Shown one piece after another: positions 5,305-19,162 of a stretch of DNA of 23,368 bases (the stretch's first letter is position 1; every line of letters starts with the position of its first letter). The stretch is from positions 1-23,368 of IMG/VR virus record IMGVR_UViG_3300047089_000063; one strand, written 5' to 3'. Both the position numbers and the translations under genes were made by a program. This DNA comes from a virus. The notes under the pieces are model-generated. The model made no database searches. It saw only the letters and a list, made by a program, of their open reading frames with translations, and was not told the DNA's origin.

Positions 5305-5406
5305 ATGAGAGAGCCAGAAGGGTGGCAGTTGATGACCTTCGCCATGTGCTGTGGAGTATTGGCATGGGTCGGCATCATTGTCGCGGTATTGAGTTTCCTA
5401 CGCTAA
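5305..5406 (+). CDS. Tiny membrane protein, 33 residues
   Basis: A strong GGGAGG (5291-5296) lies eight bases before the ATG at 5305. The product starts MREPEGWQLMTFAMCCGVLA and continues WVGIIVAVLSFLR, one transmembrane helix with charged ends. It is the last plus-strand gene, after a 161-base gap without other coding signs. Its TAA (5404-5406) overlaps the TAG of the convergent virion gene (5403-5405). The good ribosome binding site is the main support. A lysis or membrane-exclusion role is possible but unproven. Confidence 0.5.
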   Translation: MREPEGWQLMTFAMCCGVLAWVGIIVAVLSFLR

Positions 5407-7367
5407 GGTGGGGCAAGGGGGTTACGTAGCTGATACTTAGCCGGGTCAGGATACTGCATCTGCATACCACGCGCCCGTTGTCGACGCGCCGCTGCTGCGT
5501 CCAGGATGGGAGCCAGCGCAGCCTTGGCCCGGTAGGCCATTGGCCCAAGCACAGGCACCGCACTCAGGGCGACACCGCTATACTGCTTTGCCACATCGAT
5601 CGCATTCGGCACGGTGTCGGAGCCGCTTGCCCGAGCCAAATCCTCCGCAGACGCTGAACGACGCAGATCATCGCGCAGCGCCCATAGTCGCTGCATCTGA
5701 TCATCGCTGAGGCTCTGCCATGGGTTCAGCGGTGCGTCTGGATGCCGCGCAGCAACTGCCTCACGCATCATCTGCTGCACCTTGGAATACTGCATCCGGT
5801 TCAAGCTGTCATACAGCTTCGGTTCGCGCGCTTGCAGCAGCTCCATAGCGTCGATCGGCCTCGAGGTCGCCGCATAATTGGAGATGGCGTCGCCAAATCC
5901 AGGGGCTGCCGGTTCAATAGCAGCGTCTACCGCATTCCGTAGCTGCATCAGTTGCCGGGCAGCCGCCTGATTGGAAGGTGTCTCGATTGCTGCCTCTTTG
6001 GACAGTAGGAAATTGATCTGCTTGCGTACGCCCCATAGTTTGGCCGGATCGGTCTCGAGGTTGCCGTCCGCATCGTAGAGCTTGTCCGTCACATTCTTGA
6101 CGACGCGCACGACAGGATCAATCTTGCCATCCGGCCCGTTGAGAATGCTTTGCCCAACGTCGACAATAGGCTGCGCATCCGCCTGGCCCTTGCGCCGGAA
6201 CGCCGCGCCTATATCGGCTTCCAGCTGGTCATCTCGCGCTTTGGTGGCGGCGTTTACATCGAACTGCGAGCCCGCATTGTCGGCGTAGTGGATCTGCCGC
6301 GCGGTGTTGTTGCGGTCGGCCACCTCGCGAGCCTCCTGGCTCACCTCAGTATTGAGGTTGCGCAGCGTCTTGTCTTCACGTGACGCGTTCACCGTCTGCT
6401 CGATCTGGGCAACGGTTGGGTGTGAGCCGTCAACGTAAAGGTTGAGATCCTGCACCCCCGGCTGCTGCTGCTCCAACAGCTTGGTATTCTCGGCCTGGCT
6501 CCGGTTTATCGCCACCTCTTGCGGCGTCATGGCAGCAGCTGTCGCTGGCGTCGGAGCCGCACCAGCGGGCGCAGGTTCGCCTGGCGCGATCAGGCTACCA
6601 TCAGGGCCAACACGGGGTGCCATCTGGTTGGTGGACGGCGCCGGTGGGCCATACTGCTCCGGCGGCACCCGGTTTATCGCCGCGTTCAGCTCGTTCAGTG
6701 TCACCGGCATGGGCCGCATATCGCCTTGCCGTTCGAGGAAGCTGGGTGCCTCTCGCTTGAAAGCGTCCGCCCCGCTGAACTGCACATCCCGGCCACCGGC
6801 AACGCCAGCGCCTGGAGCGAAGAGTTGCAGCGCCGCCAACCCCTCGGGGGTCTGGTTGAGCGTGTTGGTCGCGGGATCGATGGTGAGGCCGCCTGTGCCC
6901 TGCCCCAGGCCCATAAGAGCGTTGATCGGCCACTGAGCCAAGGATGCCAGCCCATGCACGCCTACCATCGCCCCATAGCGCGCACCACGCTCGATCAGCC
7001 CAGCGTCTGGCCCTGGTGCGAGCGTTTTAAGGGTGCTGATGTCGCCCTGTTGGATACGGTCGCGCAGATCTCCGAGCGATGCGATCGGCGGCTGGCTCGG
7101 CGGCGCATTAACGCGCGCCACATCGTCTGGACTGACCACGGTGTCGCCAACCGCGACCGGGATGCCAGTTGGAGGCGCCGCAGCGGGCACGGGAGGCGCT
7201 GGTGGCGGCTGCTGGCCGGGGATCGCCGCTGGCGGTACGTATGAGCCGTCAGGCCCAAACGAGCCCTGCGACTGATCCACAGCATCGTGGCTGGCATATT
7301 CCATCCACGGGCCTGCCGAAGACGGAGACGGCGAGGACGACTGATATTCTTCCCACGGTCCAGCCAC
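5403..7367 (-). CDS. Large virion protein, probable DNA ejection protein
   Basis: The 654-residue product starts at a GTG at 7367, directly after the upstream stop, with GAGAGGG upstream. The N-terminus has two copies of AGPWxEY (residues 2-8 and 18-24), then a long Pro/Ala-rich linker to about residue 95. A possible membrane-active stretch lies around 130-165 (GARYGAMVGVHGLASLAQWP and on). The C-terminal half is helical and polar (for example TEVSQEAREVADRNN and KLYDADGNLETDPAKLWGVRKQINFLL). It is the last of three large genes at the promoter-distal end of the tail operon, where P22-like phages keep ejection proteins gp7, gp20 and gp16. The role is inferred from place, size and composition; no enzyme motif was found. 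Confidence 0.65.
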   Translation of the reverse strand: MAGPWEEYQSSSPSPSSAGPWMEYASHDAVDQSQGSFGPDGSYVPPAAIPGQQPPPAPPVPAAAPPTGIPVAVGDTVVSPDDVARVNAPPSQPPIASLGDLRDRIQQGDISTLKTLAPGPDAGLIERGARYGAMVGVHGLASLAQWPINALMGLGQGTGGLTIDPATNTLNQTPEGLAALQLFAPGAGVAGGRDVQFSGADAFKREAPSFLERQGDMRPMPVTLNELNAAINRVPPEQYGPPAPSTNQMAPRVGPDGSLIAPGEPAPAGAAPTPATAAAMTPQEVAINRSQAENTKLLEQQQPGVQDLNLYVDGSHPTVAQIEQTVNASREDKTLRNLNTEVSQEAREVADRNNTARQIHYADNAGSQFDVNAATKARDDQLEADIGAAFRRKGQADAQPIVDVGQSILNGPDGKIDPVVRVVKNVTDKLYDADGNLETDPAKLWGVRKQINFLLSKEAAIETPSNQAAARQLMQLRNAVDAAIEPAAPGFGDAISNYAATSRPIDAMELLQAREPKLYDSLNRMQYSKVQQMMREAVAARHPDAPLNPWQSLSDDQMQRLWALRDDLRRSASAEDLARASGSDTVPNAIDVAKQYSGVALSAVPVLGPMAYRAKAALAPILDAAAARRQRARGMQMQYPDPAKYQLRNPLAPP

Positions 7368-9731
7368 TTACTGAACCCTCTCCCAATTCGCCTGGCTTGC
7401 TGGATCACCGCCTTTGAACCGATAGCCCCCTTTGATGGTGCCGACAGCAGGAGGAGCGACAGCCTTTGGCGCACTCGCTGTTGATGCTGGCGGTTCGCGG
7501 CTCGGCGCCTGCCCATCCGGCTGCTGCATCTCCCCGGTGCCGGGGTTGTAGATCGGCGCAAAGCCATGCTCGTGGTAGTACTTTGCCTGCCAGTTCGGCG
7601 GCAACACGCCAGTAACGCTGGCATCCTCCATGCCCTTCGCGGCCATTTCGCGCTCATAGACGAACTGCGACCGCGCCCAATTCAGCACTCGCTCGAGCGC
7701 AGCAGGATCGGTTTCAATACCAGGCTGGGCTGCGATGAAGTGTTGGATCTTGGCGTCCGTGACCTGACTTCCTGGCCCCAGTATCTGCTGCAGGATCGCA
7801 CCCGACACCACAGCCAGCGTCTTCTTGGCAGTCTGGATGTTGCCCACGGCGTTCGGATCGACGCCAATGGCTTCGGTTGGCACACCAAGAGACTTGGCGA
7901 CCGAGGCGACCGTGGACAGCCACGGCGCGAAATATCCGGTGTTGATGCCGCCGGTTTTCGCTTTCGCGACCTGGCTCATCCCGTAGTCGATATTCCCGAT
8001 AGCCGACGCCGCCGTTCGTCCTTGGTCAGCGAGTTCTCCAGTCAGCTTGCCAGTGGCCGTGCCCGCCGCCGCTCCCGAGGTCTTCGCCGCCTCCTGCTCG
8101 GTGATGCCGGCCGGGTTCATCGGCACCACCACAGTGGCGCCCCCGCCAGGCTTCGATTGCACGGCACCGACACCGGGAACCATCGTCATTCTAGGCGAGG
8201 GCGGCGTGACCGGAGGATGCACGCCGGTGGTGTCCACGTAGGCGCCCTGCTGTTCGTTCCATACGTAGTGAGCATTCGGCGCGGCAGCGTTCAGCCGCTC
8301 GCCCGTGAGTTGCTTGGTCTGGATGCCGGTGACCGGATCGACGCTGACGCTGTCGGCCTGCATGTAGAGCGCGGCCTGGGCGCGCAGGCTGGCGGCCTGT
8401 GCCTTGGCTTGCGGCGAGTAGGGGAACTGCGTCTCGAGTGCCGTGGCGCGGCGGTTCATCTCGAGCGCTGCCTGGAACTGTGGCGATTGCGTCCCGGTGC
8501 CGGTCGAGGGAGCCGGCTGTGCGGTCGCAGCAGGCGCCGCAGCGGGCTGTGGCTGCCCTGGCTGTGCCGGGGTTGATGCTGGAGCTGCGGCCGCCACGGG
8601 CACTCGTGGACCAGGTGGAGGCGTGCCGTAGTTGCCATCGGCATAGTGGACGCCGCCCTGTGCATCAGGAGCGTCCCCGACTTTGCCATTGGGGTAGGTG
8701 AACTGGGGAGCTGCTGGAGGCCCTCCAGGCGCCGCTGTGGGCCCTGGTGGCGCCACCGGCGCATTGGAGGCCACCTGGTATGACGGCGTCCCACGGCCTC
8801 CTGCGGGCGCAGCGGATGCAGTCGTGGTGCCCCCGCCGATCTGCTGTTGCAGTTGCAGCGCAGTGGCCGAGCGCCGCTGCATCTCTGCCTGGGTGTCCTT
8901 GGGCCGCAGGTAGTATTGCGAGACCGCGGCTGCCTTAGCCGCTGGCCCCTGTGCCTCGGCAATCTTCGCCGCTGCCGGCGCCTCGCTGCCCTTCAGCTCG
9001 CGCACCACGTTGTCAAGTTGCTCATCGAGGGGGGAGCCGTCCGGCGAATGGCCGTATGCGTCCGTATAGGCTTGCAGGCGTGGGCCGGCCCACTGGAACA
9101 GCCCTGCGGAGTTGCCGTTGTCGCCGCGGCCGGTGGCCGGGTTGGCGACGCTCTCGTGCAGCGCGTTGGCTGCCAAGGCTGTGGCTGTGTCCGGGTCAAT
9201 GCCGCGCTTGATCAACCCGTCGCGGACAGCGGTGGCGTTGTTGAAGGCGGCCGGCTCGATAGTCGCGGAAGGTGTCGTGGCTACGCTGCCGGGCGTGGTC
9301 CCTGTCGTGCCCCCATACCCCGGCTGCCCTGGCAATGGTGCGTTGGATCTGGCCAGCGCGTCCGTCAGACCTGGCGCTGTGATCAACCCCATCTTGTACT
9401 GGTCCTGGACCGGCACGGTCTGGTTGACCAGCATCTGCAGCGACTGCTCGTCCGGCAGCGTCGGGGGCGCGTACTTCGCCAAGCCCTGCGACTGCAGCAC
9501 CCCGACCCCCTGCGCATACGCCTGCGCGCGCGCCGCTGGGTCTTTGATGTTCAGCAGCCCAGCCGCAAGACGCCCGACCTGCTCATGGTCAGCAGCGGTC
9601 AGATCCATTTGCTGGCCCTGGATCGCCAGTTGGTTCTTCTGGAGCTGCTGGCCGGTCAGACCCGACGCCGAGTTAAACAGGATGTTCTCGTCGGGGAACG
9701 GCGAGTCGATGTGTTGCGTGAACCCGGACAT
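7368..9731 (-). CDS. Virion protein with tail-lysozyme domain
   Basis: The ATG at 9731 forms TGATG with the preceding stop; an in-frame GTG at 9740 is the alternative. The product has 787 residues. After a helical N-terminus, residues about 160-295 resemble a phage tail lysozyme: AVRDGLIKRGIDPDTATALA, NALHESVANP with a likely catalytic Glu near 193, and SAGLFQW at about 208-214. Such domains cut peptidoglycan locally during DNA entry. A Pro/Ala/Gln linker spans about 300-430. The C-terminal half is helical (QTAKKTLAVVSGAILQQILG) and ends with GGYRFKGGDPASQANWERV. Size and place suit an internal virion protein that is ejected, like T7 gp16 or P22 gp16. The domain call is from pattern, not alignment. 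Confidence 0.72.
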   Translation of the reverse strand: MSGFTQHIDSPFPDENILFNSASGLTGQQLQKNQLAIQGQQMDLTAADHEQVGRLAAGLLNIKDPAARAQAYAQGVGVLQSQGLAKYAPPTLPDEQSLQMLVNQTVPVQDQYKMGLITAPGLTDALARSNAPLPGQPGYGGTTGTTPGSVATTPSATIEPAAFNNATAVRDGLIKRGIDPDTATALAANALHESVANPATGRGDNGNSAGLFQWAGPRLQAYTDAYGHSPDGSPLDEQLDNVVRELKGSEAPAAAKIAEAQGPAAKAAAVSQYYLRPKDTQAEMQRRSATALQLQQQIGGGTTTASAAPAGGRGTPSYQVASNAPVAPPGPTAAPGGPPAAPQFTYPNGKVGDAPDAQGGVHYADGNYGTPPPGPRVPVAAAAPASTPAQPGQPQPAAAPAATAQPAPSTGTGTQSPQFQAALEMNRRATALETQFPYSPQAKAQAASLRAQAALYMQADSVSVDPVTGIQTKQLTGERLNAAAPNAHYVWNEQQGAYVDTTGVHPPVTPPSPRMTMVPGVGAVQSKPGGGATVVVPMNPAGITEQEAAKTSGAAAGTATGKLTGELADQGRTAASAIGNIDYGMSQVAKAKTGGINTGYFAPWLSTVASVAKSLGVPTEAIGVDPNAVGNIQTAKKTLAVVSGAILQQILGPGSQVTDAKIQHFIAAQPGIETDPAALERVLNWARSQFVYEREMAAKGMEDASVTGVLPPNWQAKYYHEHGFAPIYNPGTGEMQQPDGQAPSREPPASTASAPKAVAPPAVGTIKGGYRFKGGDPASQANWERVQ

Positions 9732-10399
9732 CAGGCCCACCCCAGATCAGCGCCTGGCATCTGCGCGTAGGTGGAGGCGCCACCGCTACCACCAAGCCAA
9801 TTCTGGAACCCCTGGTTGTTCATGAGGCCATTGGCCGCGGTGCCGATGCCCTTGGCGATGTTGCCGTAGATGCTGGCATCCGCCCCCGCCTGGCCGACAT
9901 CGACGTTCGCGATGTTCGCCGCCCCGCCGGTAGCCGCGTTGGCAATACCGCCAGCCGCCGACAGGCCGGACCCACTTAGCTGCTGCAGCCGGTTCCAGTA
10001 GTTGCCGAAGTCGCTGTTCGCCAGGCCCTGCCCGAACGTCTGCTCAGCCTTCAGCGCAGCGCCAGAGCGCGTGAACCCTCTCGCCGCCGCTCCGGCATCC
10101 ACCGCCCGCAGACCCTCGTTCATCTGCCACTGGTATCCAGGGCTGGTCTGATAGGTGCTCATCGCCTTGTTCGCCGCATCCTGGCCACCAAGCCCTAGCA
10201 GGTCATACTGCTGCTGGTTCGCTGGAACACCAGTCGTCGTCCACGGCGACAGTTGGTTGGTGGCAGTCTGGATGCCCTGATTGAGCGCATCTCTGGCAGC
10301 CGACGCCCCCTTGTCGATGGCGTTCTTCTGCATGATGCCGCCGGCAATGCCAGCAACAGCACTCACACCGGCTCCAACCGCAGCGGCGGCGAACGGCAT
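9731..10399 (-). CDS. Probable DNA transfer/ejection protein
   Basis: The ATG at 10399 follows the cupin stop by two bases; the longer upstream frame is a shadow. The 222-residue product begins with a glycine-zipper hydrophobic segment (FAAAAVGAGVSAVAGIAGGI), then a polar helix AARDALNQGIQTATNQLSPW. Next is a block common in short-tailed phage transfer proteins: SPGYQWQMNEGLRAVDAGAA, RSGAALKAEQTFGQGLAN and FGNYWNRLQQLSG. The end is Gly/Ala-rich with more hydrophobic patches. It probably inserts in or crosses the cell envelope during ejection, with the two large proteins encoded just downstream (coupled TGATG to the lysozyme gene). Family recognised from the SPGYQWQ-to-NYWNRL pattern; exact role inferred. 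Confidence 0.7.
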   Translation of the reverse strand: MPFAAAAVGAGVSAVAGIAGGIMQKNAIDKGASAARDALNQGIQTATNQLSPWTTTGVPANQQQYDLLGLGGQDAANKAMSTYQTSPGYQWQMNEGLRAVDAGAAARGFTRSGAALKAEQTFGQGLANSDFGNYWNRLQQLSGSGLSAAGGIANAATGGAANIANVDVGQAGADASIYGNIAKGIGTAANGLMNNQGFQNWLGGSGGASTYAQMPGADLGWA

Positions 10400-10401
10400 C
10401 G

Positions 10402-10755
10402 CTAGTCCTCCTCGAAGCTCAGATGATGTTCCTCGGCCACCGCAGGCTCGTCGGCCTCGAGGTGGTCCGCGTTGTGTATACATGCCAGTAGAACGCCGGG
10501 AGTGAGCGTCAAAAAGCTGTGCATGACGTGGGCCGGTATGCGGATCGTGGCCGGCGCGCAGTACTCGGTCGGCCCGTCATCATCGCCGTCGCGCCACAGC
10601 CGAACGCGACCCTGCAGCAGGGCCGTCAGGTGACCGTGGTGGTGCGCGTGTTGGGGTAGCAGCGTGTCGGCATCGGGGACGCGATAGACTTTCATGTAGA
10701 TGCCAGCGTATACACTTACGCTCACCGTCTCGGGCTGGTTAGGGGCGCGCTTCAT
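10402..10755 (-). CDS. Small cupin-domain protein
   Basis: The start is the ATG at 10755, overlapping the dioxygenase stop (ATGA); the longer frame is a shadow. The 117-residue product is a single beta-barrel cupin. Motif 1 is LLPQHAHHHGHLTALLQGRV with candidate metal ligands His36, His38 and His42, and motif 2 is APATIRIPAHVMHSFLTLTPG with His76 or His79. The tail (HLEADEPAVAEEHHLSFEED) is acidic. The conserved barrel and histidines suggest a metal- or small-molecule-binding protein rather than a structural one. It lies in the tail operon between a dioxygenase-like gene and the ejection genes, so it may act with the dioxygenase or end up in the virion. Substrate unknown. Confidence 0.7.
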   Translation of the reverse strand: MKRAPNQPETVSVSVYAGIYMKVYRVPDADTLLPQHAHHHGHLTALLQGRVRLWRDGDDDGPTEYCAPATIRIPAHVMHSFLTLTPGVLLACIHNADHLEADEPAVAEEHHLSFEED

Positions 10756-11306
10756 CTCTCCACCCGTAGGCACACGATCATTGTGGTGCGTTGCGTGGTG
10801 CCGTCGTTGGTCATCGAGTGAGGGCGGAGATTGTCGAACTCGAAGATTTCGCCCTCGCGAAACACCTGCTCGTCGCCATCGCACTCCACCACGCAGCGGG
10901 CATTCGCCTCCAGCACGATGTAGCATTTGAAGTTGTAGCGCTGGGCATGCCAGGCTGCCGCGTCGCTGTGCCGCTCAATGCGCCCACCTGGCGGCAGACG
11001 CGTACAAAGTATCCCACCAAGTTCCACCGATCTCTGCGACGCCATCAGCGTCCACACGACCGGATGCAGCGACGGCAGCTTGTCCCACACTGGATAGAAC
11101 ACGCACTGGCCGGGGCGATTGTAGTCGGCAGGCTCATGAAGGGTGGATCTGTCGAAGTACCTGATCCAGAGGTCGGTCATGGCGCGATGAGCGGTTCCGT
11201 CGCGCTCCTTGCGCTCGGCATATAGGCCCCACTCGGGCACAGCCTGTAGCTCGGCCAAGATCGGAGCGACGTTCAGCCCTGCATGGATCAATCGGAAGTT
11301 CCGCAT
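10752..11306 (-). CDS. Aspartyl/asparaginyl beta-hydroxylase-like dioxygenase
   Basis: The 184-residue product has a strong GGAGG (11311-11315) before its ATG. The C-terminal half carries the Asp/Asn beta-hydroxylase pattern: GGRIERHSDAAAWHAQRY with His113 and Asp115, VVECDGDEQVFREGEIFEFD, then NLRPHSMTNDG with His163, and Arg173 in TQRTTMIVCLR. His, Asp and His would bind Fe(II), and the Arg would bind 2-oxoglutarate. All expected metal ligands are present, so it is probably active. The family hydroxylates Asp or Asn side chains in proteins, and related enzymes act on small molecules. Its place inside a tail operon, coupled to a cupin, suggests a virion or host-surface target. That target is inference. 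Confidence 0.78.
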   Translation of the reverse strand: MRNFRLIHAGLNVAPILAELQAVPEWGLYAERKERDGTAHRAMTDLWIRYFDRSTLHEPADYNRPGQCVFYPVWDKLPSLHPVVWTLMASQRSVELGGILCTRLPPGGRIERHSDAAAWHAQRYNFKCYIVLEANARCVVECDGDEQVFREGEIFEFDNLRPHSMTNDGTTQRTTMIVCLRVER

Positions 11307-11321: not shown

Positions 11322-11348
11322 GGGCGCCAGCCATTGTGACTGGCGCCC
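11322..11348 (-). other. GC-rich hairpin before dioxygenase gene
   Basis: GGGCGCCAG (11322-11330) and CTGGCGCCC (11340-11348) form a perfect 9-bp stem with a 9-base loop, just upstream of the dioxygenase ribosome binding site. On the transcribed strand it is followed by TTCCCC, so it lacks the T-run of a terminator. It sits in the only sizeable gap (11307-11443) within the virion operon, which otherwise holds no convincing gene. RNA processing, stability or translational control are possible. Confidence 0.5.
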
Positions 11349-11443: not shown

Positions 11444-11674
11444 CTAGCACTTTCCTGGCCGATTGCGCCGCTCGTCGATCGCCTTCTGTAGCGCTCCCGC
11501 TACCTCTTCCGGCGCATCGTCAGGCGCCACCCCTACAGCATGCCGCCAGCCGTTCTGCGTGCGGATGTAGATGCCGTGCCAGCAGCCGTGATCTCTGTCG
11601 CCGGTGGTAACCCAGGTGACCTGATCGCCCAGTTGCTGCTCGACGTGCCGCCGGATGTCCTCGAGCCACTCCAT
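11444..11674 (-). CDS. Hypothetical small late protein
   Basis: The ATG at 11674 shares its A with the preceding stop (TGATG); an upstream in-frame start at 11749 would lie inside the neighbour. The 76-residue product starts MEWLEDIRRHVEQQLGDQVT, an amphipathic helix. A strand-rich centre (WVTTGDRDHGCWHGIYIRTQ) follows, then a final helix PEEVAGALQKAIDERRNRPGKC. It looks like a small folded alpha/beta protein. The operon place suggests a minor tail or assembly factor. I do not recognise the family. Confidence 0.6.
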   Translation of the reverse strand: MEWLEDIRRHVEQQLGDQVTWVTTGDRDHGCWHGIYIRTQNGWRHAVGVAPDDAPEEVAGALQKAIDERRNRPGKC

Positions 11675-12201
11675 CAACGTGCCCGCCTCGCCCGAATACT
11701 CCCCGAGGCCGTCGCGCTGCTGCTGCCAGCCGCCAACGCCACCAGCCACACCGTCACGGTCGCCGTCCCATTGTACCGTCGCGTCGCGGTATTCATGACC
11801 TGGTTAATCCCCCCGGTCGGAAACGTCGCCATGATCTGCGTATCGATGCTGTCGATGCCGACTGCAAACGTCACGTGTGTGCCGCTGCCGGTCGCCAACC
11901 CCACATTGCCGGACACGTCCCAGTCGCCCGCCGTCAGATCCAGCGACACAACATTCGTAACCACGTTGTCCGACAGTCCCACCCCACCGGCCGATGCGGT
12001 CATGAACTCGCCAATTTGCCCCGCCGTGGCCTCGCTGCCGTCAGTCACGCCGGCCTTCGCCATAACCTTCTGCGTAATGCTATCCAGCCGGTCAGCGACG
12101 TTCTGGTGAAATCCCGTCCATGCGTCCGAATGCCGTCCGTCGTCCGCCACCGGCGGGTCGTTGGCCGGCGGTTGCAACCGTGGGGGCAGCGTCACGGACA
12201 T
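11674..12201 (-). CDS. Hypothetical late protein, likely minor tail component
   Basis: The ATG at 12201 shares its A with the gp10-like stop (TGATG). The product has 175 residues. It has a proline-rich N-terminus and a helical stretch HSDAWTGFHQNVADRLDSIT. A beta-rich region with repeated small polar residues follows (VVTNVVSLDLTAGDWDVSGN, HVTFAVGIDSIDTQIMATFP, RRYNGTATVTVWLVALAAG). The basic tail is SIRARRAR. The beta part looks like a surface-exposed virion domain such as those in decoration or fibre proteins. Position directly after the tail hub gene would also suit a tail-tip protein. No family assigned. Confidence 0.6.
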   Translation of the reverse strand: MSVTLPPRLQPPANDPPVADDGRHSDAWTGFHQNVADRLDSITQKVMAKAGVTDGSEATAGQIGEFMTASAGGVGLSDNVVTNVVSLDLTAGDWDVSGNVGLATGSGTHVTFAVGIDSIDTQIMATFPTGGINQVMNTATRRYNGTATVTVWLVALAAGSSSATASGSIRARRAR

Positions 12202-13682
12202 CAGCCGCCCACCCCTGCCGTGATGTCCGCACTTAGGGCGTAGAAAGTCGCCCGGCTGACAGTCGTCACCCGGAACATGCGTTCACGAAAACTACCCAGC
12301 CGCGTCGTCACCATGCGCTGCGTCCGCCGCGTGGCCCCGGAGCGCGTCAGAACGCGCGGCGCCGACCAGGTGATGCCAGCGTCGTCCGACCACTCCAGCG
12401 TCACCGGCGCCTCGTTGATCTCCATCTCCAGTTCCAACCGTGAGCAGAACGCCCGGTTGGTATCGGCCCACAGCGGCGGTGTGATGTATTGCCGCGCTAC
12501 CTCGGTGCCGAACTCCTGGCCCACCTCCGGGTTGAGCAGCGCGAGCCGTCCCGTCGTGCGTTCGGCGAATATCTGATTGATCGATGAAAGTTGCGGCCCG
12601 GTGCAGCGCCACCCGCCGGTCACGTCCACCGAGCTGGCGCGCTCGTGCCAGACCTGTGTCGCGCAGTCATACACCAGCGTCCGTGAGGTCAGGTCGAGCA
12701 CATAGAACGTATGCCCGTTCTGGCTATAGGCCCAGGCGTTGTTGATATCGGTCAGCGGAATGAATCGCAACAGGTCTTCGATGGCGTGCGTCGATATCCG
12801 CTTCGCTTTCATCCCAACGGAGCGCATCACCATCCAGTCAGCGGTGACCCAGAACAGCGAGCCATCCGCGATGGCGCATGTCTTGGCCGACAGCGTGCCG
12901 TGCTGGATGACCCCGCCCGACTGGCGCCGGAACGGAAAGAACGAGAAGCCCGGCGTCGTCTCCAGCCCGGACGATCCGGCGTCATACCAGATCTCCACCG
13001 AGCGATCGCCGATGAACCACAGCAGGCCGCCCAGCGACATGACGCGCCGCACGATGTCGCTGTCGGCGTCGGCGTAAGCGAAGTCGAGCGCATCGTAATC
13101 CAGCGGATCGAACAGGCGCGAGGCGAAGAACCGCCCGTCTTCGGCGGTATAGACAAAGTATCCGTCGAGGTAGGTCACACTGCGCGCGCCGGAAAAGTCC
13201 CCACCGATCTGGTTCAGCGGCCCGTCATGCGCGCAGGTAAAGGCGTTCGGTGGCACACACACCACGCACGCGGTCGGCCCGCAGGCGATCGTGGAGAGGA
13301 TGTGCTGCGGATAGTCCGGCAGCGACGGGAAACCGACAAAGCCCAGGTCGGTGATCGTCAGCGTGCCGCCGACCGAGACCGAGCGGCGAAAGAAGCTCCC
13401 TCCGCTTACGGCGTAGAGCACCCCGGCAATATCGCAGTTCATGGCGTTGATCGGGCCGCCGCCAAGCCGCTCGCCGGTATCGTCCATCCCCGGCGTCGGC
13501 ACCAGCGCGGCGGCGGTTCGGCTGTCGGCGGGTTCCGCCTCCGCCATGAGATTGACGAGCCGCTTGTGCTGCAAAGCCGGACTGTTGTGCTGATAGCTTT
13601 CGAGCGGGAACGGGATACGCCGCATTCCCGTCTTCGGCGCGGCAGCCAATGCGGATGCAGTATCGCTCACAGGGAAAACCAT
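12201..13682 (-). CDS. P22 gp10-like packaged-DNA stabilisation / tail hub protein
   Basis: The ATG at 13682 is used (493 residues); an in-frame GTG at 13688 is an alternative. Both overlap the tailspike end and have weak ribosome binding sites. The protein matches the layout I know for the phage stabilisation family of P22 gp10 (about 470 residues). After an N-terminal segment with IPFPLESYQHNSPALQHKRL come repeated beta-propeller-like strands: GVLYAVSGGSFFRRS, GYFVYTAEDGRFFASRLFDP, LGGLLWFIGDRSVEIWYDAG, YSQNGHTFYVLDLTSRTLVY and WHERASSV. The C-terminal half continues in beta strands (FCSRLELEMEINEAPVTLEW). gp10 forms a hexameric ring that plugs the tail after DNA packaging. Similarity is at motif level, so orthology is likely but unproved. 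Confidence 0.72.
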   Translation of the reverse strand: MVFPVSDTASALAAAPKTGMRRIPFPLESYQHNSPALQHKRLVNLMAEAEPADSRTAAALVPTPGMDDTGERLGGGPINAMNCDIAGVLYAVSGGSFFRRSVSVGGTLTITDLGFVGFPSLPDYPQHILSTIACGPTACVVCVPPNAFTCAHDGPLNQIGGDFSGARSVTYLDGYFVYTAEDGRFFASRLFDPLDYDALDFAYADADSDIVRRVMSLGGLLWFIGDRSVEIWYDAGSSGLETTPGFSFFPFRRQSGGVIQHGTLSAKTCAIADGSLFWVTADWMVMRSVGMKAKRISTHAIEDLLRFIPLTDINNAWAYSQNGHTFYVLDLTSRTLVYDCATQVWHERASSVDVTGGWRCTGPQLSSINQIFAERTTGRLALLNPEVGQEFGTEVARQYITPPLWADTNRAFCSRLELEMEINEAPVTLEWSDDAGITWSAPRVLTRSGATRRTQRMVTTRLGSFRERMFRVTTVSRATFYALSADITAGVGG

Positions 13683-15082
13683 TTCCACGAAGGCGTGCCG
13701 CTGTAGGCCACGCCGATCGTCTGTCCGGGCAATATCTCCATATAGCCAGGCGCCACGGCTCCGGTCTGATTGCCGTTGATCGACATCTGATTGAACCCGG
13801 TGGGATACACGCCACAGCGGTAGGGATACGGGTTGGTGACCGTGCTACTGGAAGCGGGGACCGCTGGCGGCGTGCTGATGTAACCCGTGCCTGTCATGCC
13901 GCGCACGTTCTCGAGGTTGAGGACGCCTGCCGCGATGGAGTAGCCGCCCGCGCTTGCCCAGGAGCCGCGCACGCCACCGCCCAGCCACGTAATGGTTGGC
14001 GCGTTCGCACCGCCGGCCTGCAACGCGACCGCCGCCTGTCCTGGCGTACCCGTATGATCGCATGATCCGACATTACAATGAATGATCTGCCAGCCGTAAG
14101 CGGCGTTATCAGTCGATCGCGCGACTATCCCAAACTGCACGGTGTCCAGATCGATGTCAGACATATGTCCATACGAATTTGGAGGGGTCTCGGACGCTCC
14201 GTCCGTCAACTGAATGCCGACATAACGATACAGCACGCCAACGCTTGCAATCGACAGGGCATCCGCCCGTGAGACGTTGATGCCAACGCCGTGGGTGAGC
14301 ACCCACGCATCGATCGGTTGGCCCACCGGAAGACCGAACATGGTATCCCAGAATGGTTCGATCATAACGTGGTTGATGTAGGTATAATCCGCGACCGTAT
14401 CCACATCGATGCCGATATAAAACGCGCCGATTTTGCAATCCTCGATCAAACTCCGCCCGCCGCGCACATCGATGCCGATGTAAGCGTTGGTGGTGGTCAC
14501 GCGCCGCACGTAGCAACGGTCGGCCATGTAGATGGCGGCTGGATAGACGTTCGGCGTCGTGGCCGATGCCAGCACCTGCTGCGGATAGTGGATCAGTACG
14601 TCCTGCAACGATGATCCGGTATTAAGAAACACCAACTGCGTGCCCGTCGAATTGGCGAGCAGTGTGCAGTATTTGTTGTTCACGAGCGGGTCGGTGTAGG
14701 CGTCGGGCGGCCCGGGTATCATGCCGCACAGCGCCACGTTCTCGGGAATATTGATCGGGTCGATCCGGTAGGCTCCGATCGGCACCACTACGAGGCCACC
14801 GCCCGCCGAGGACGCCGCGTTCAGCGCCGCGTTGAACGCCGCCGAGTCGTTGGTGGTGCCATCGCCAACCGCACCGTGCTCCCTGACGTTGATGCCCTGG
14901 CCGGCGATCCGCGCCGCCGTTTCGGCATTGAGCGCGGCCTGCGTGGCGAATGTGCCGCCCATGTAGGTTCGCACCGCCGGCATGGCGAAGCGCCCGGAGC
15001 CTGCTCGTTCGCCAACCACCGAGGAGCTGTCGTTAACGACGCCGAGATCCGGCATCTCGACGATGCGAATTGTGTTGCTCAT
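13667..15082 (-). CDS. Tailspike, beta-helix, shared anchor (copy 2)
   Basis: The ATG at 15082 overlaps the previous spike's stop (ATGA). The 471-residue product opens with an anchor nearly identical to that of the next gene upstream: IRIVEMPDLG, then VVGERAGSGRF (24 of 32 residues identical). A short helix AALNAETAARIA follows. From about residue 64, INVREHGAVGDGTTNDSAAF is the start pattern of pectate-lyase-like right-handed beta-helix domains, continuing to about residue 400 in short repeating strands (GIDVRGGRSLIEDCKIGAFY, GIDVDTVADYTYINHVMIEP). The C-terminus (GYMEILPGQTIGVAYSGTPS and on) is probably a trimerisation cap. Such spikes bind and often cut surface polysaccharide. Catalytic residues cannot be assigned by eye. 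Confidence 0.78.
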   Translation of the reverse strand: MSNTIRIVEMPDLGVVNDSSSVVGERAGSGRFAMPAVRTYMGGTFATQAALNAETAARIAGQGINVREHGAVGDGTTNDSAAFNAALNAASSAGGGLVVVPIGAYRIDPINIPENVALCGMIPGPPDAYTDPLVNNKYCTLLANSTGTQLVFLNTGSSLQDVLIHYPQQVLASATTPNVYPAAIYMADRCYVRRVTTTNAYIGIDVRGGRSLIEDCKIGAFYIGIDVDTVADYTYINHVMIEPFWDTMFGLPVGQPIDAWVLTHGVGINVSRADALSIASVGVLYRYVGIQLTDGASETPPNSYGHMSDIDLDTVQFGIVARSTDNAAYGWQIIHCNVGSCDHTGTPGQAAVALQAGGANAPTITWLGGGVRGSWASAGGYSIAAGVLNLENVRGMTGTGYISTPPAVPASSSTVTNPYPYRCGVYPTGFNQMSINGNQTGAVAPGYMEILPGQTIGVAYSGTPSWKWFSL

Positions 15083-17326: not shown

Positions 17327-18505
17327 CTATCCGATCATCGTGACGATGGGGCCGTTGAGGACGGTAGGCGCTGGTGGCCATCCGGCTGTGTAGCCGCTCG
17401 GTACCGTGCCGCTAAATGCGCTGTCACCGAAATTGCCAGTGAACACGCACTGAATAGAGAGTTGCACGGCGGCAACCGGACAAATCGTGGCGCCGGTAAT
17501 AGCTGAGAAGCTGACGCCACCGGCCACGCCTGGGGCATACGTGGCATTGCCGTTCCAGTTGCCGGCGGGTGCAACCCGGAACCAGATGAGACTATTGGTT
17601 AGATCGGCCGCAATCCCGATAACATCCCCGTCTGCCCTGGCACCGATGCTGACACCAGTGACGCTGCCATTTACATAAATGTTACCCGCTGGAATGACAG
17701 TAGCGGCGCCCACGCTGCCGCTACTGGACATCGATGACAAAGCAGCAGTGGTGTTTGCTATCCCGACAGGGGGTGAGCCAGCCCCCGCCCACGTCGAAGC
17801 TGAGATTTCAAAGTAAGCCTTGCCCGAGGTCATCGCTTTCGTAGATCGAACGCCCTGAGTGCCGTTGACGAGCGTAGCGGTCAGGCTGCCGCCGGATAAG
17901 GTGACGCTAGACGTTTTGTCGCTCGGGTTCCAAGTGGCGTGGGCAAGAACCTGCGCGGGAAACCCAGATGTAAAGCCGCTTGGCACCCCGCCAACGAATG
18001 CGCTGTCACCGAAATTCGCAGTGACCGCATCACCAGACGCAAAGAACAGTCCCGCCGGGGACATGCCGTTAGCGGCGATGGCAGACACCGACAGGCCGCC
18101 AAGTGGGGTGGCCGGGTTGGCGGTGCCACTGCCGTTCCAGTTGCCGGCGGGTGCTACGCGAAACCATATGCTGTTGGTGCCACAGTCCACCGCAACGCCG
18201 ATGACATCGCCGGCAGATCGCGCACCCAGAGATGAACCGCTGTTGCTGCCATTGATGAAGATCGCGCCGCTCAGGATCACCACGGCATTGTGGCCGGCAG
18301 ACGGAAAGCCCCCGACATTGCTAATGCCGACCTGCGTCGATCCGTTAGTCCAGGTGGTCGGCTTCAGCTCGAAATAATACTTGCCGGTGGTCTGCTTATC
18401 GACAGCCCTGATCCACGACGTGGTCGATGTCGCGGTCGCGGTAAGATTGCCGCCGCTGAGGGTTACCGATACGAGATCATTCGGGTCCCAGGTGGTGTTG
18501 GCCAC
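17327..18505 (-). CDS. Tandem SPRY-like adhesin
   Basis: The GTG start at 18505 lies three bases after the upstream stop. The 392-residue product consists of two homologous domains, about 1-183 and 184-392. Each runs TWxPxD, VTLSGG, a GKxYFE strand, VGI, a GDVIG(V/I)A strand and WFRVAPAGNWNG (114-125 and 308-319, identical), and ends NFGDSAF...VPSG. This order (GKxYFE, IGV, GDVIGVAxD, I/VWFR) is that of SPRY domains, beta-sandwich binding modules known in eukaryotes and in some phage structural proteins. A 25-base DNA repeat (17548-17572 and 18130-18154) lies in the WFR region. It probably serves as a receptor- or glycan-binding virion protein. No anchor to the tail is obvious. Confidence 0.7.
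   Translation of the reverse strand: MANTTWDPNDLVSVTLSGGNLTATATSTTSWIRAVDKQTTGKYYFELKPTTWTNGSTQVGISNVGGFPSAGHNAVVILSGAIFINGSNSGSSLGARSAGDVIGVAVDCGTNSIWFRVAPAGNWNGSGTANPATPLGGLSVSAIAANGMSPAGLFFASGDAVTANFGDSAFVGGVPSGFTSGFPAQVLAHATWNPSDKTSSVTLSGGSLTATLVNGTQGVRSTKAMTSGKAYFEISASTWAGAGSPPVGIANTTAALSSMSSSGSVGAATVIPAGNIYVNGSVTGVSIGARADGDVIGIAADLTNSLIWFRVAPAGNWNGNATYAPGVAGGVSFSAITGATICPVAAVQLSIQCVFTGNFGDSAFSGTVPSGYTAGWPPAPTVLNGPIVTMIG
17548..17572. repeat. 25-bp direct repeat in SPRY-like gene, copy 1
   Basis: Identical over 25 bases to 18130-18154. Both encode the APAGNWNG part of the duplicated domain. The rest of the two domains has diverged at DNA level, so this is either a strongly conserved core or a trace of gene conversion between the halves. 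Confidence 0.7.
18130..18154. repeat. 25-bp direct repeat in SPRY-like gene, copy 2
   Basis: Second copy of the repeat at 17548-17572, 582 bases away, in the N-terminal domain. The distance is one domain length (194 codons). Confidence 0.7.
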
Positions 18506-18508
18506 CGC

Positions 18509-19162
18509 TCAAGCCCACGTCACGGCGAGCGACAGCAGCGCATCGGTCGGGCTGCTGGTTGCTGATGTGATCACCGCTGTGATGCGCTGGCCTGCTGTGA
18601 ACGTATTCGCAGCCGTTGCATTGGTGGTCGCAGGCGTTGCACTGCTCACTGCCACTGCGCTCAACCCTGTCACGTTGGTGCCGTTGATCTGGATCGCAAC
18701 GCTGAATGAGCCATTGCCGGTGAAGTAGGTCAGGCTGTTGATGGTGCCGTTGTATGGCACATCATAGGCCAGCCAGACGGTGTCGTTGGCAACGATGGCA
18801 CCAGTGACCCATTGAGCTTGCAGGCGCGCGGTGTTGCGGGACGTGCCGGCTGGTCCTGTGGCCCCTGTCGCGCCGGCTGGCCCGGTGGCTCCCGTTGGAC
18901 CAGCAGGCCCCGTTGCGCCAGTTGGTCCGGTCGATCCAGTGGCCCCCGCTGGCCCTGTCGGGCCTATGGCGCCAGGCGGCCCAGGAACCGCGCTGCCAGC
19001 GCCAGTGGGGCCTTGTGGTCCTACCGGGCCAGTCGCCCCAGGTGGCCCAGGGAAGCCCTGCGGGCCTCTCCAGCCCTCGCCCACCGGATCGCATGGCACG
19101 TCTGGCGGCTGCGGGTTGCCGGCGAAGGACGGGCCGCCGGGGATGCTCACGCCGTCAGGCAT
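18509..19162 (-). CDS. Collagen-like tail fibre protein
   Basis: The ATG at 19162 overlaps the upstream gene by 8 bases. The 217-residue product has a Pro-rich N-terminus ([20 protein letters not shown]), then a collagen-like region at residues 33-106 of Gly-X-Y triplets ([19 protein letters not shown] onward), broken once by an AGSAVP interruption near 55-60. The C-terminal 110 residues are beta-rich ([60 protein letters not shown]). Phage collagen-like regions make trimeric rods joining the tail to a receptor-binding head. The final domain would be that head or a trimerisation unit. Similar triplets occur in the fibre gene upstream. Confidence 0.75.
18845..19066 (-). repeat. Collagen-triplet coding repeat
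   Basis: The DNA encodes about 24 Gly-X-Y triplets rich in GPT, GPA and GAT units. It is the kind of low-complexity tract that can expand or contract by slippage or recombination, changing fibre length. Confidence 0.7.

Follow-up and report, generated by a model that had tools for sequence, protein, structure and literature searches.

A gene pair encoding a PF05118-type Fe(II)/2-oxoglutarate (2OG) oxygenase and a small four-histidine cupin lies directly upstream of a P22 gp7-like DNA-ejection gene in the window, the whole 23,368-nucleotide stretch of IMG/VR virus record IMGVR_UViG_3300047089_000063 analysed here. The enzyme and its linkage to ejection genes are well supported. We propose that, in the cell producing the phage, the two proteins modify a phage protein, for which the ejection protein encoded next to them is the likeliest candidate, and assign this reading a probability of about 0.45.

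The oxygenase and its cupin partner

The oxygenase gene (10752..11306, minus strand) begins with ATG and encodes 184 amino acids that match PF05118 above the curated Pfam cut-off (E=2.5e-11). The protein has the HxD...H triad for metal binding (H113, D115 and H163) and an arginine for 2-oxoglutarate (R173), all invariant in alignment A1. The triad is kept in 106/106 full-length homologues and R173 in 104/106. AlphaFold2 modelling from 54 sequences gave a confident jelly roll (double-stranded beta-helix, pLDDT 95) that matches many 2OG oxygenases, and among viral predicted structures an Asp/Asn/Pro hydroxylase from an uncultured phage matches best (TM 0.90). Comparison with the window's clade yielded dN/dS values of 0.05–0.11, indicating strong purifying selection. 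Because the predicted fold, the kept ligands, the profile match and the low dN/dS agree, the oxygenase is very probably a functional enzyme. A scan of the genome collection for a close cellular or prophage copy found none, and its single match was short and weak.

The cupin gene (10402..10755, minus strand) overlaps the oxygenase gene by an ATGA stop/start (10752..10755), and the same −3 offset occurs in many relatives. Its 117-amino acid product starts with MKRA. A longer mechanical open reading frame starting at 10926 was rejected as an over-extension, as relatives begin at the conserved MKRA. The Pfam Cupin_2 match (E=0.0016) is below the cut-off; the fold is backed by an AlphaFold2 model (pLDDT 91) and by PDB matches to TM1459, KdgF and quercetinase-type cupins. 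The initial annotation had placed both genes within 10402–11306, coupled them by ATGA and named His113, Asp115, His163 and Arg173 as ligands, all of which was correct, and the structure prediction that it suggested as a check returned the jelly roll and the cupin fold.

H36, H38, H42, H79 and C92 are invariant in the oxygenase-paired cupin homologues (n=34). The protein thus has the HxH, third ligand and second-motif histidine of a metal-binding cupin, with His42 at the place of the usual glutamate. Phages that lack the oxygenase have cupins of the same family (profile E 1e-8 to 3e-16). The four-histidine site is intact in 34/34 oxygenase-paired cupins and broken in 9/9 of the unpaired cupins examined, a difference that could reflect a single clade effect.

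A perfect 9-bp inverted repeat (GGGCGCCAG, 9-nt loop, CTGGCGCCC) lies at 11322–11348, shortly before the GGAGG and start codon of the oxygenase gene. It has no T run and was not called a terminator. A scan for consensus promoters and terminators near the pair found nothing above chance.

A slot upstream of the ejection gene

The pair sits in a run of minus-strand virion genes. Head closure Hc3 (12201..13688; P22 gp10-like, phrog_578, E=1.3e-65) marks the upstream side of the slot and is followed by a small tail-fibre-like gene (11674..12201; phrog_11393 tail fiber, E=5.9e-14), the oxygenase and the cupin. Next come the gp7-like DNA-ejection protein (9731..10399; MPFAAAAVGAG...; phrog_598, E=7e-28, and 2.3e-30 in a second search), which is the proposed substrate or partner, and a large virion protein with a phage tail lysozyme domain (7368..9740; PF18013, E=9.7e-20), the second gene of the ejection module. 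The third module position is held by a 654-amino acid protein (5403..7367) of cluster c23, which is also downstream in relatives; it has no family match in the Pfam or PHROG search. The pair had been placed between a tail hub and the ejection genes. The ejection gene is indeed downstream, and the supposed hub is Hc3 plus the small tail-fibre-like gene.

Gene order is 10-26-14-7-20-16 in P22 and 12-13-14-15-16 in T7; therefore the pair, directly upstream of the gp7/gp14-type ejection gene, occupies the position of P22 gene 14 and T7 gene 13. A review regards P22 gp7 and T7 gp14 as equivalent, each being the ejection protein of the outer membrane (PMC8954989). Neither the oxygenase nor the cupin matches the GNAT-like families DUF2824, phrog_651 or phrog_308.

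Scans of IMG/VR and phage records yielded 108 oxygenase loci, some near-identical or from one contig. Almost all of them have the oxygenase in the late operon, and a gp7/gp14-like ejection gene usually follows immediately. A profile search placed a gp7-like gene no more than 3.5 kb downstream in 64/99 loci with room, and other ejection-type neighbours are phrog_21132 ('DNA ejection') in MW202665 and gp14-like phrog_418 in L055 and L070. L070 has a gp12-like tail protein followed by gp13 (phrog_308), oxygenase, cupin, gp14 (phrog_418) and a lysozyme-domain protein, in that order. DC33-like phages carry the cassette between terL and portal, before a small ejection-like ORF (c10) whose N-terminal make-up is similar to that of ejection-type genes and which no library names. 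The exceptions are L120 and L125–L129, where the oxygenase directly precedes terL. The survey recommended in the initial annotation thus bears out linkage to virion genes with the metal ligands retained. The pair had been described as embedded in the tail operon; it is conserved in virion operons, but the constant neighbour is the ejection protein rather than the tail.

The partner of the oxygenase varies. Among the 108 loci, a GNAT gene is downstream in 47, a cupin is downstream in 28 and upstream in 9 (37 with cupin), neither is present in 24, and no locus has both. The partner labels cluster on the tree, with 9 changes against 34 when shuffled (67 sequences below 95% identity).

Loci were also recovered starting from the window's Hc3. 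The slot holds oxygenase and cupin in 6/8 of these, cupin alone in one and neither in one (L143); four of the six (L141, L142, L145 and L146) are one allele, which leaves fewer independent cases. Since the oxygenase is under purifying selection and its linkage is kept in loci found independently of it, neither the enzyme nor its position is a matter of chance. Hc3 of locus L140 is 99% identical to that of the window and its oxygenase (L140:6658-7251) only 51% identical, so the allele was exchanged in place with function retained. L140 also has a free-standing HNH endonuclease gene between the cupin and the gp7-like gene.

Relatives without the oxygenase were found starting from an ejection-module gene of Pseudomonas phage PfAn1. 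Their slot holds a GNAT-like gene (L150, L152, L153, L155) or a cupin-SET fusion (L151). The Pfam SET match is 1.4e-9 in L151:2760-3632, 6.4e-6 in L161:3492-4253 and a weak 0.015 in L157:3462-4337. The ejection gene follows these fusions immediately, except that in L161 the gene in its position is unannotated, and the fusion is possibly a phage protein methyltransferase. Related cupins without oxygenase occur in BA3, P26218, X14, VPMS1, VAC_51, Amaethon and MW202744, where the next gene downstream is the ejection gene or, in three records that lack ejection annotation, the gene that takes its position. Absence of the oxygenase from cupin-bearing isolates was judged by tblastn of the phage collection with three family members, which found only MW202665, DC33 and PfAn1. 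The public labels 'short tail fiber' and 'tail fiber adhesin' (phrog_12032 and phrog_24280; BA3, X14, VPMS1) sit on cupin-family proteins adjoining ejection genes and are probably misleading.

Vibrio and Pseudomonas Zobellviridae and Manatee Spring phages have GNAT genes in the same places but no oxygenase. The product of L153:3118-3618 matches phrog_651 (the P22 gp14 family, 6.9e-13), the acetyltransferase family phrog_1249 and, above the cut-off, Acetyltransf_1; therefore P22 gp14 (DUF2824, 'head morphogenesis'; L026:8911-9366) is related to GNATs by way of L153 and its relatives. Direct hhalign comparison of P22 gp14 and T7 gp13, each as a single sequence and so of little depth, with the GNAT profile gave no signal. 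The link of T7 gp13 to the slot enzymes is positional only.

What the pair may modify

The pair may form a modification module, expressed late, that occupies the slot immediately before the ejection gene in P22/T7-type podoviruses. Most likely the oxygenase would act inside the cell that makes the phage, hydroxylating the side chain of a protein, with the metal-binding cupin working together with it. The likeliest substrate would be the gp7/gp14-like ejection protein encoded next to the pair, which would be modified ahead of its packaging into the head. In other phages a GNAT acetyltransferase or a cupin-SET fusion would serve at the same place instead. Action in the producing cell on the ejection protein or some other virion protein is favoured because the folds found in the slot (2OG oxygenase, GNAT, SET) are typically protein-modifying, their co-substrates are cytoplasmic and the ejection protein is the constant neighbour. 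That relatives have other modifying enzymes at the same place hints at chemical modification of ejection proteins, though it is no demonstration of it. The choice of the ejection protein as substrate follows from gene linkage, a form of guilt by association that can mislead. The cassette between terL and portal in DC33-like phages and the oxygenase before terL in six loci count against it. A search for target residues in gp7-like proteins specific to carriers found none; Pro57 and Pro92 are conserved but occur in enzyme-free phages as well. A search of the open-access literature found no paper on hydroxylation of a phage virion protein.

The strongest alternative is that the pair is late-operon cargo: the junctions at the ejection gene and terL would tolerate insertion, the enzymes would be independent auxiliary genes acting on host metabolites, and their linkage would be positional. 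The oxygenases adjoining terL, the HNH gene in the L140 slot, a closest solved relative that acts on free proline (substrate from the PDB title) and publication of the DC33 enzyme as an auxiliary metabolic gene (PMC12195039) are all consistent with cargo. However, the same few enzyme folds recur almost always before an ejection-type gene in both P22-like and T7-like phages, only two small junctions are used, and the oxygenase is retained even as divergent alleles replace it. We regard cargo as a real but unlikely explanation.

PF05118 also includes lipid hydroxylases. The pair could act on a molecule of the host surface, such as lipid A, ornithine lipid or a glycan, in the manner of LpxO/OlsC-type hydroxylases, leading to superinfection exclusion or easier release, and the cupin matches do include the sugar-acting KdgF. 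But the oxygenase is a 184-amino acid single-domain protein with no conserved surface-modifying partner gene, and the alternatives in the slot are GNAT, SET and the P22 gp14 family, which makes a surface role improbable.

Ejection of the enzymes into the new host, another role raised in the initial annotation, would have them packaged, delivered with the gp7/gp14-like protein and active there. The genes are inside the internal-virion cluster, and the record of phage X14 labels its homologous cupin 'Unknown function structural gene' (a record note only). It is possible but less likely than action in the producing cell because 2-oxoglutarate, acetyl-CoA and SAM are cytoplasmic. Moreover, the outer membrane is the reported location of gp14-type proteins (PMC8954989), and the slot GNAT of vB_PaeM-G11 (ORF39), which is next to internal virion proteins, is not among the gel-assigned virion proteins (PMC10142737). 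We give packaging only a slim chance.

Hydroxylation of collagen-like fibres from the same operon, as in collagen prolyl hydroxylation, had also been suggested and is very unlikely: the window encodes collagen-like repeats (18509–19162) and the fold of the oxygenase is related to that of vCPH, a collagen prolyl hydroxylase from a virus (rank 48 in the fold search), but such repeats are present in only 7/40 large carrier records (4/40 over the cut-off), which rules these fibres out as the general substrate. The adjoining virion-operon gene at 17327–18505, next to the collagen-like and pectate-lyase-like spike genes, encodes a SPRY domain (PF00622, 5e-8).

Modification of the ejection protein could have a wider bearing. 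Tentatively, several podovirus lineages may share a slot of interchangeable protein-modifying enzymes (2OG hydroxylase, GNAT, SET methyltransferase, metal cupin) upstream of an outer-membrane-pore ejection protein whose modification is needed for packaging or infectivity, with T7 gp13 and P22 gp14 as degenerate textbook members. Little is established about what T7 gene 13 and P22 gene 14 do. If the slot holds enzymes that modify the ejection protein, both genes gain a testable function and the building of an infectious short-tailed phage gains a new step. An experimental test is practical because two carriers, Pseudomonas phage PfAn1 and Limnohabitans phage DC33, are in culture. Relative to the open-access literature searched, four things appear to be new: a conserved cassette at the ejection gene that pairs the hydroxylase with a cupin or a GNAT, the correlation of the cupin metal site with the oxygenase, SET-fused cupins as an alternative, and the link of P22 gp14 to GNATs. 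Priority is not claimed.

Comparison with known systems

The oxygenase had been called Asp/Asn beta-hydroxylase-like. It is a jelly-roll PF05118 oxygenase, but fold and sequence place it nearer to HxD..H proline hydroxylases than to AspH proper. The top PDB fold match is L-proline cis-4-hydroxylase 4p7w (TM 0.68 by query, 0.47 by target), with human AspH lower (TM 0.47–0.58), and a profile search likewise favoured 4p7w (E=1.5e-10) over AspH (6.8e-5). L-proline cis-4-hydroxylase (4p7w/4p7x) and proline 3-hydroxylase (1e5r) are the best matches by profile and fold, with HxD..H and Arg in register with the phage protein. However, the free L-proline cis-4-hydroxylase has a chain of about 290 amino acids compared with 184, and the sequences align only over residues 102–180. 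Animal AspH shares PF05118 and the jelly roll. Its metal site consists of two histidines with no carboxylate ligand, whereas Asp115 is invariant in the phage oxygenase, and the single 184-amino acid phage domain lacks the TPR domain and membrane anchor of AspH. Filing the oxygenase as AspH proper is ruled out by metal site and size, and Asp/Pro-hydroxylase-type protein is the better name.

Other phages encode proteins with the same annotation. Limnohabitans phage DC33 ORF8, a detected homologue, was published as an Asp/Asn beta-hydroxylase (PMC12195039), Asp/Asn/Pro-type hydroxylases are core genes in pelagimyophages (PMC7029224), and such hydroxylases are present in T4-like cyanophages (PMC3037559). 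The open-access papers found on phage hydroxylases list them as auxiliary or core and describe neither a link to ejection genes nor alternation of cupin and GNAT. The DC33 record (PQ492659.1) carries the family label Inoviridae, although the phage is tailed, as its terminase and podovirus-type portal show.

The phrog_12032/24280 cupins and the cupin-SET fusions belong by profile to the same family as the window's cupin and occupy the same slot. Unlike it, those examined occur without the oxygenase and have lost the four-histidine site. T7 gp13, P22 gp14 and the cobavirus GNAT pc40, which adjoins internal virion proteins and has been compared to T7 gp13 (PMC6775973), share the gene position of the window's pair. 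They differ from it in enzyme fold, and L070 has oxygenase and cupin in addition to a gp13 homologue.
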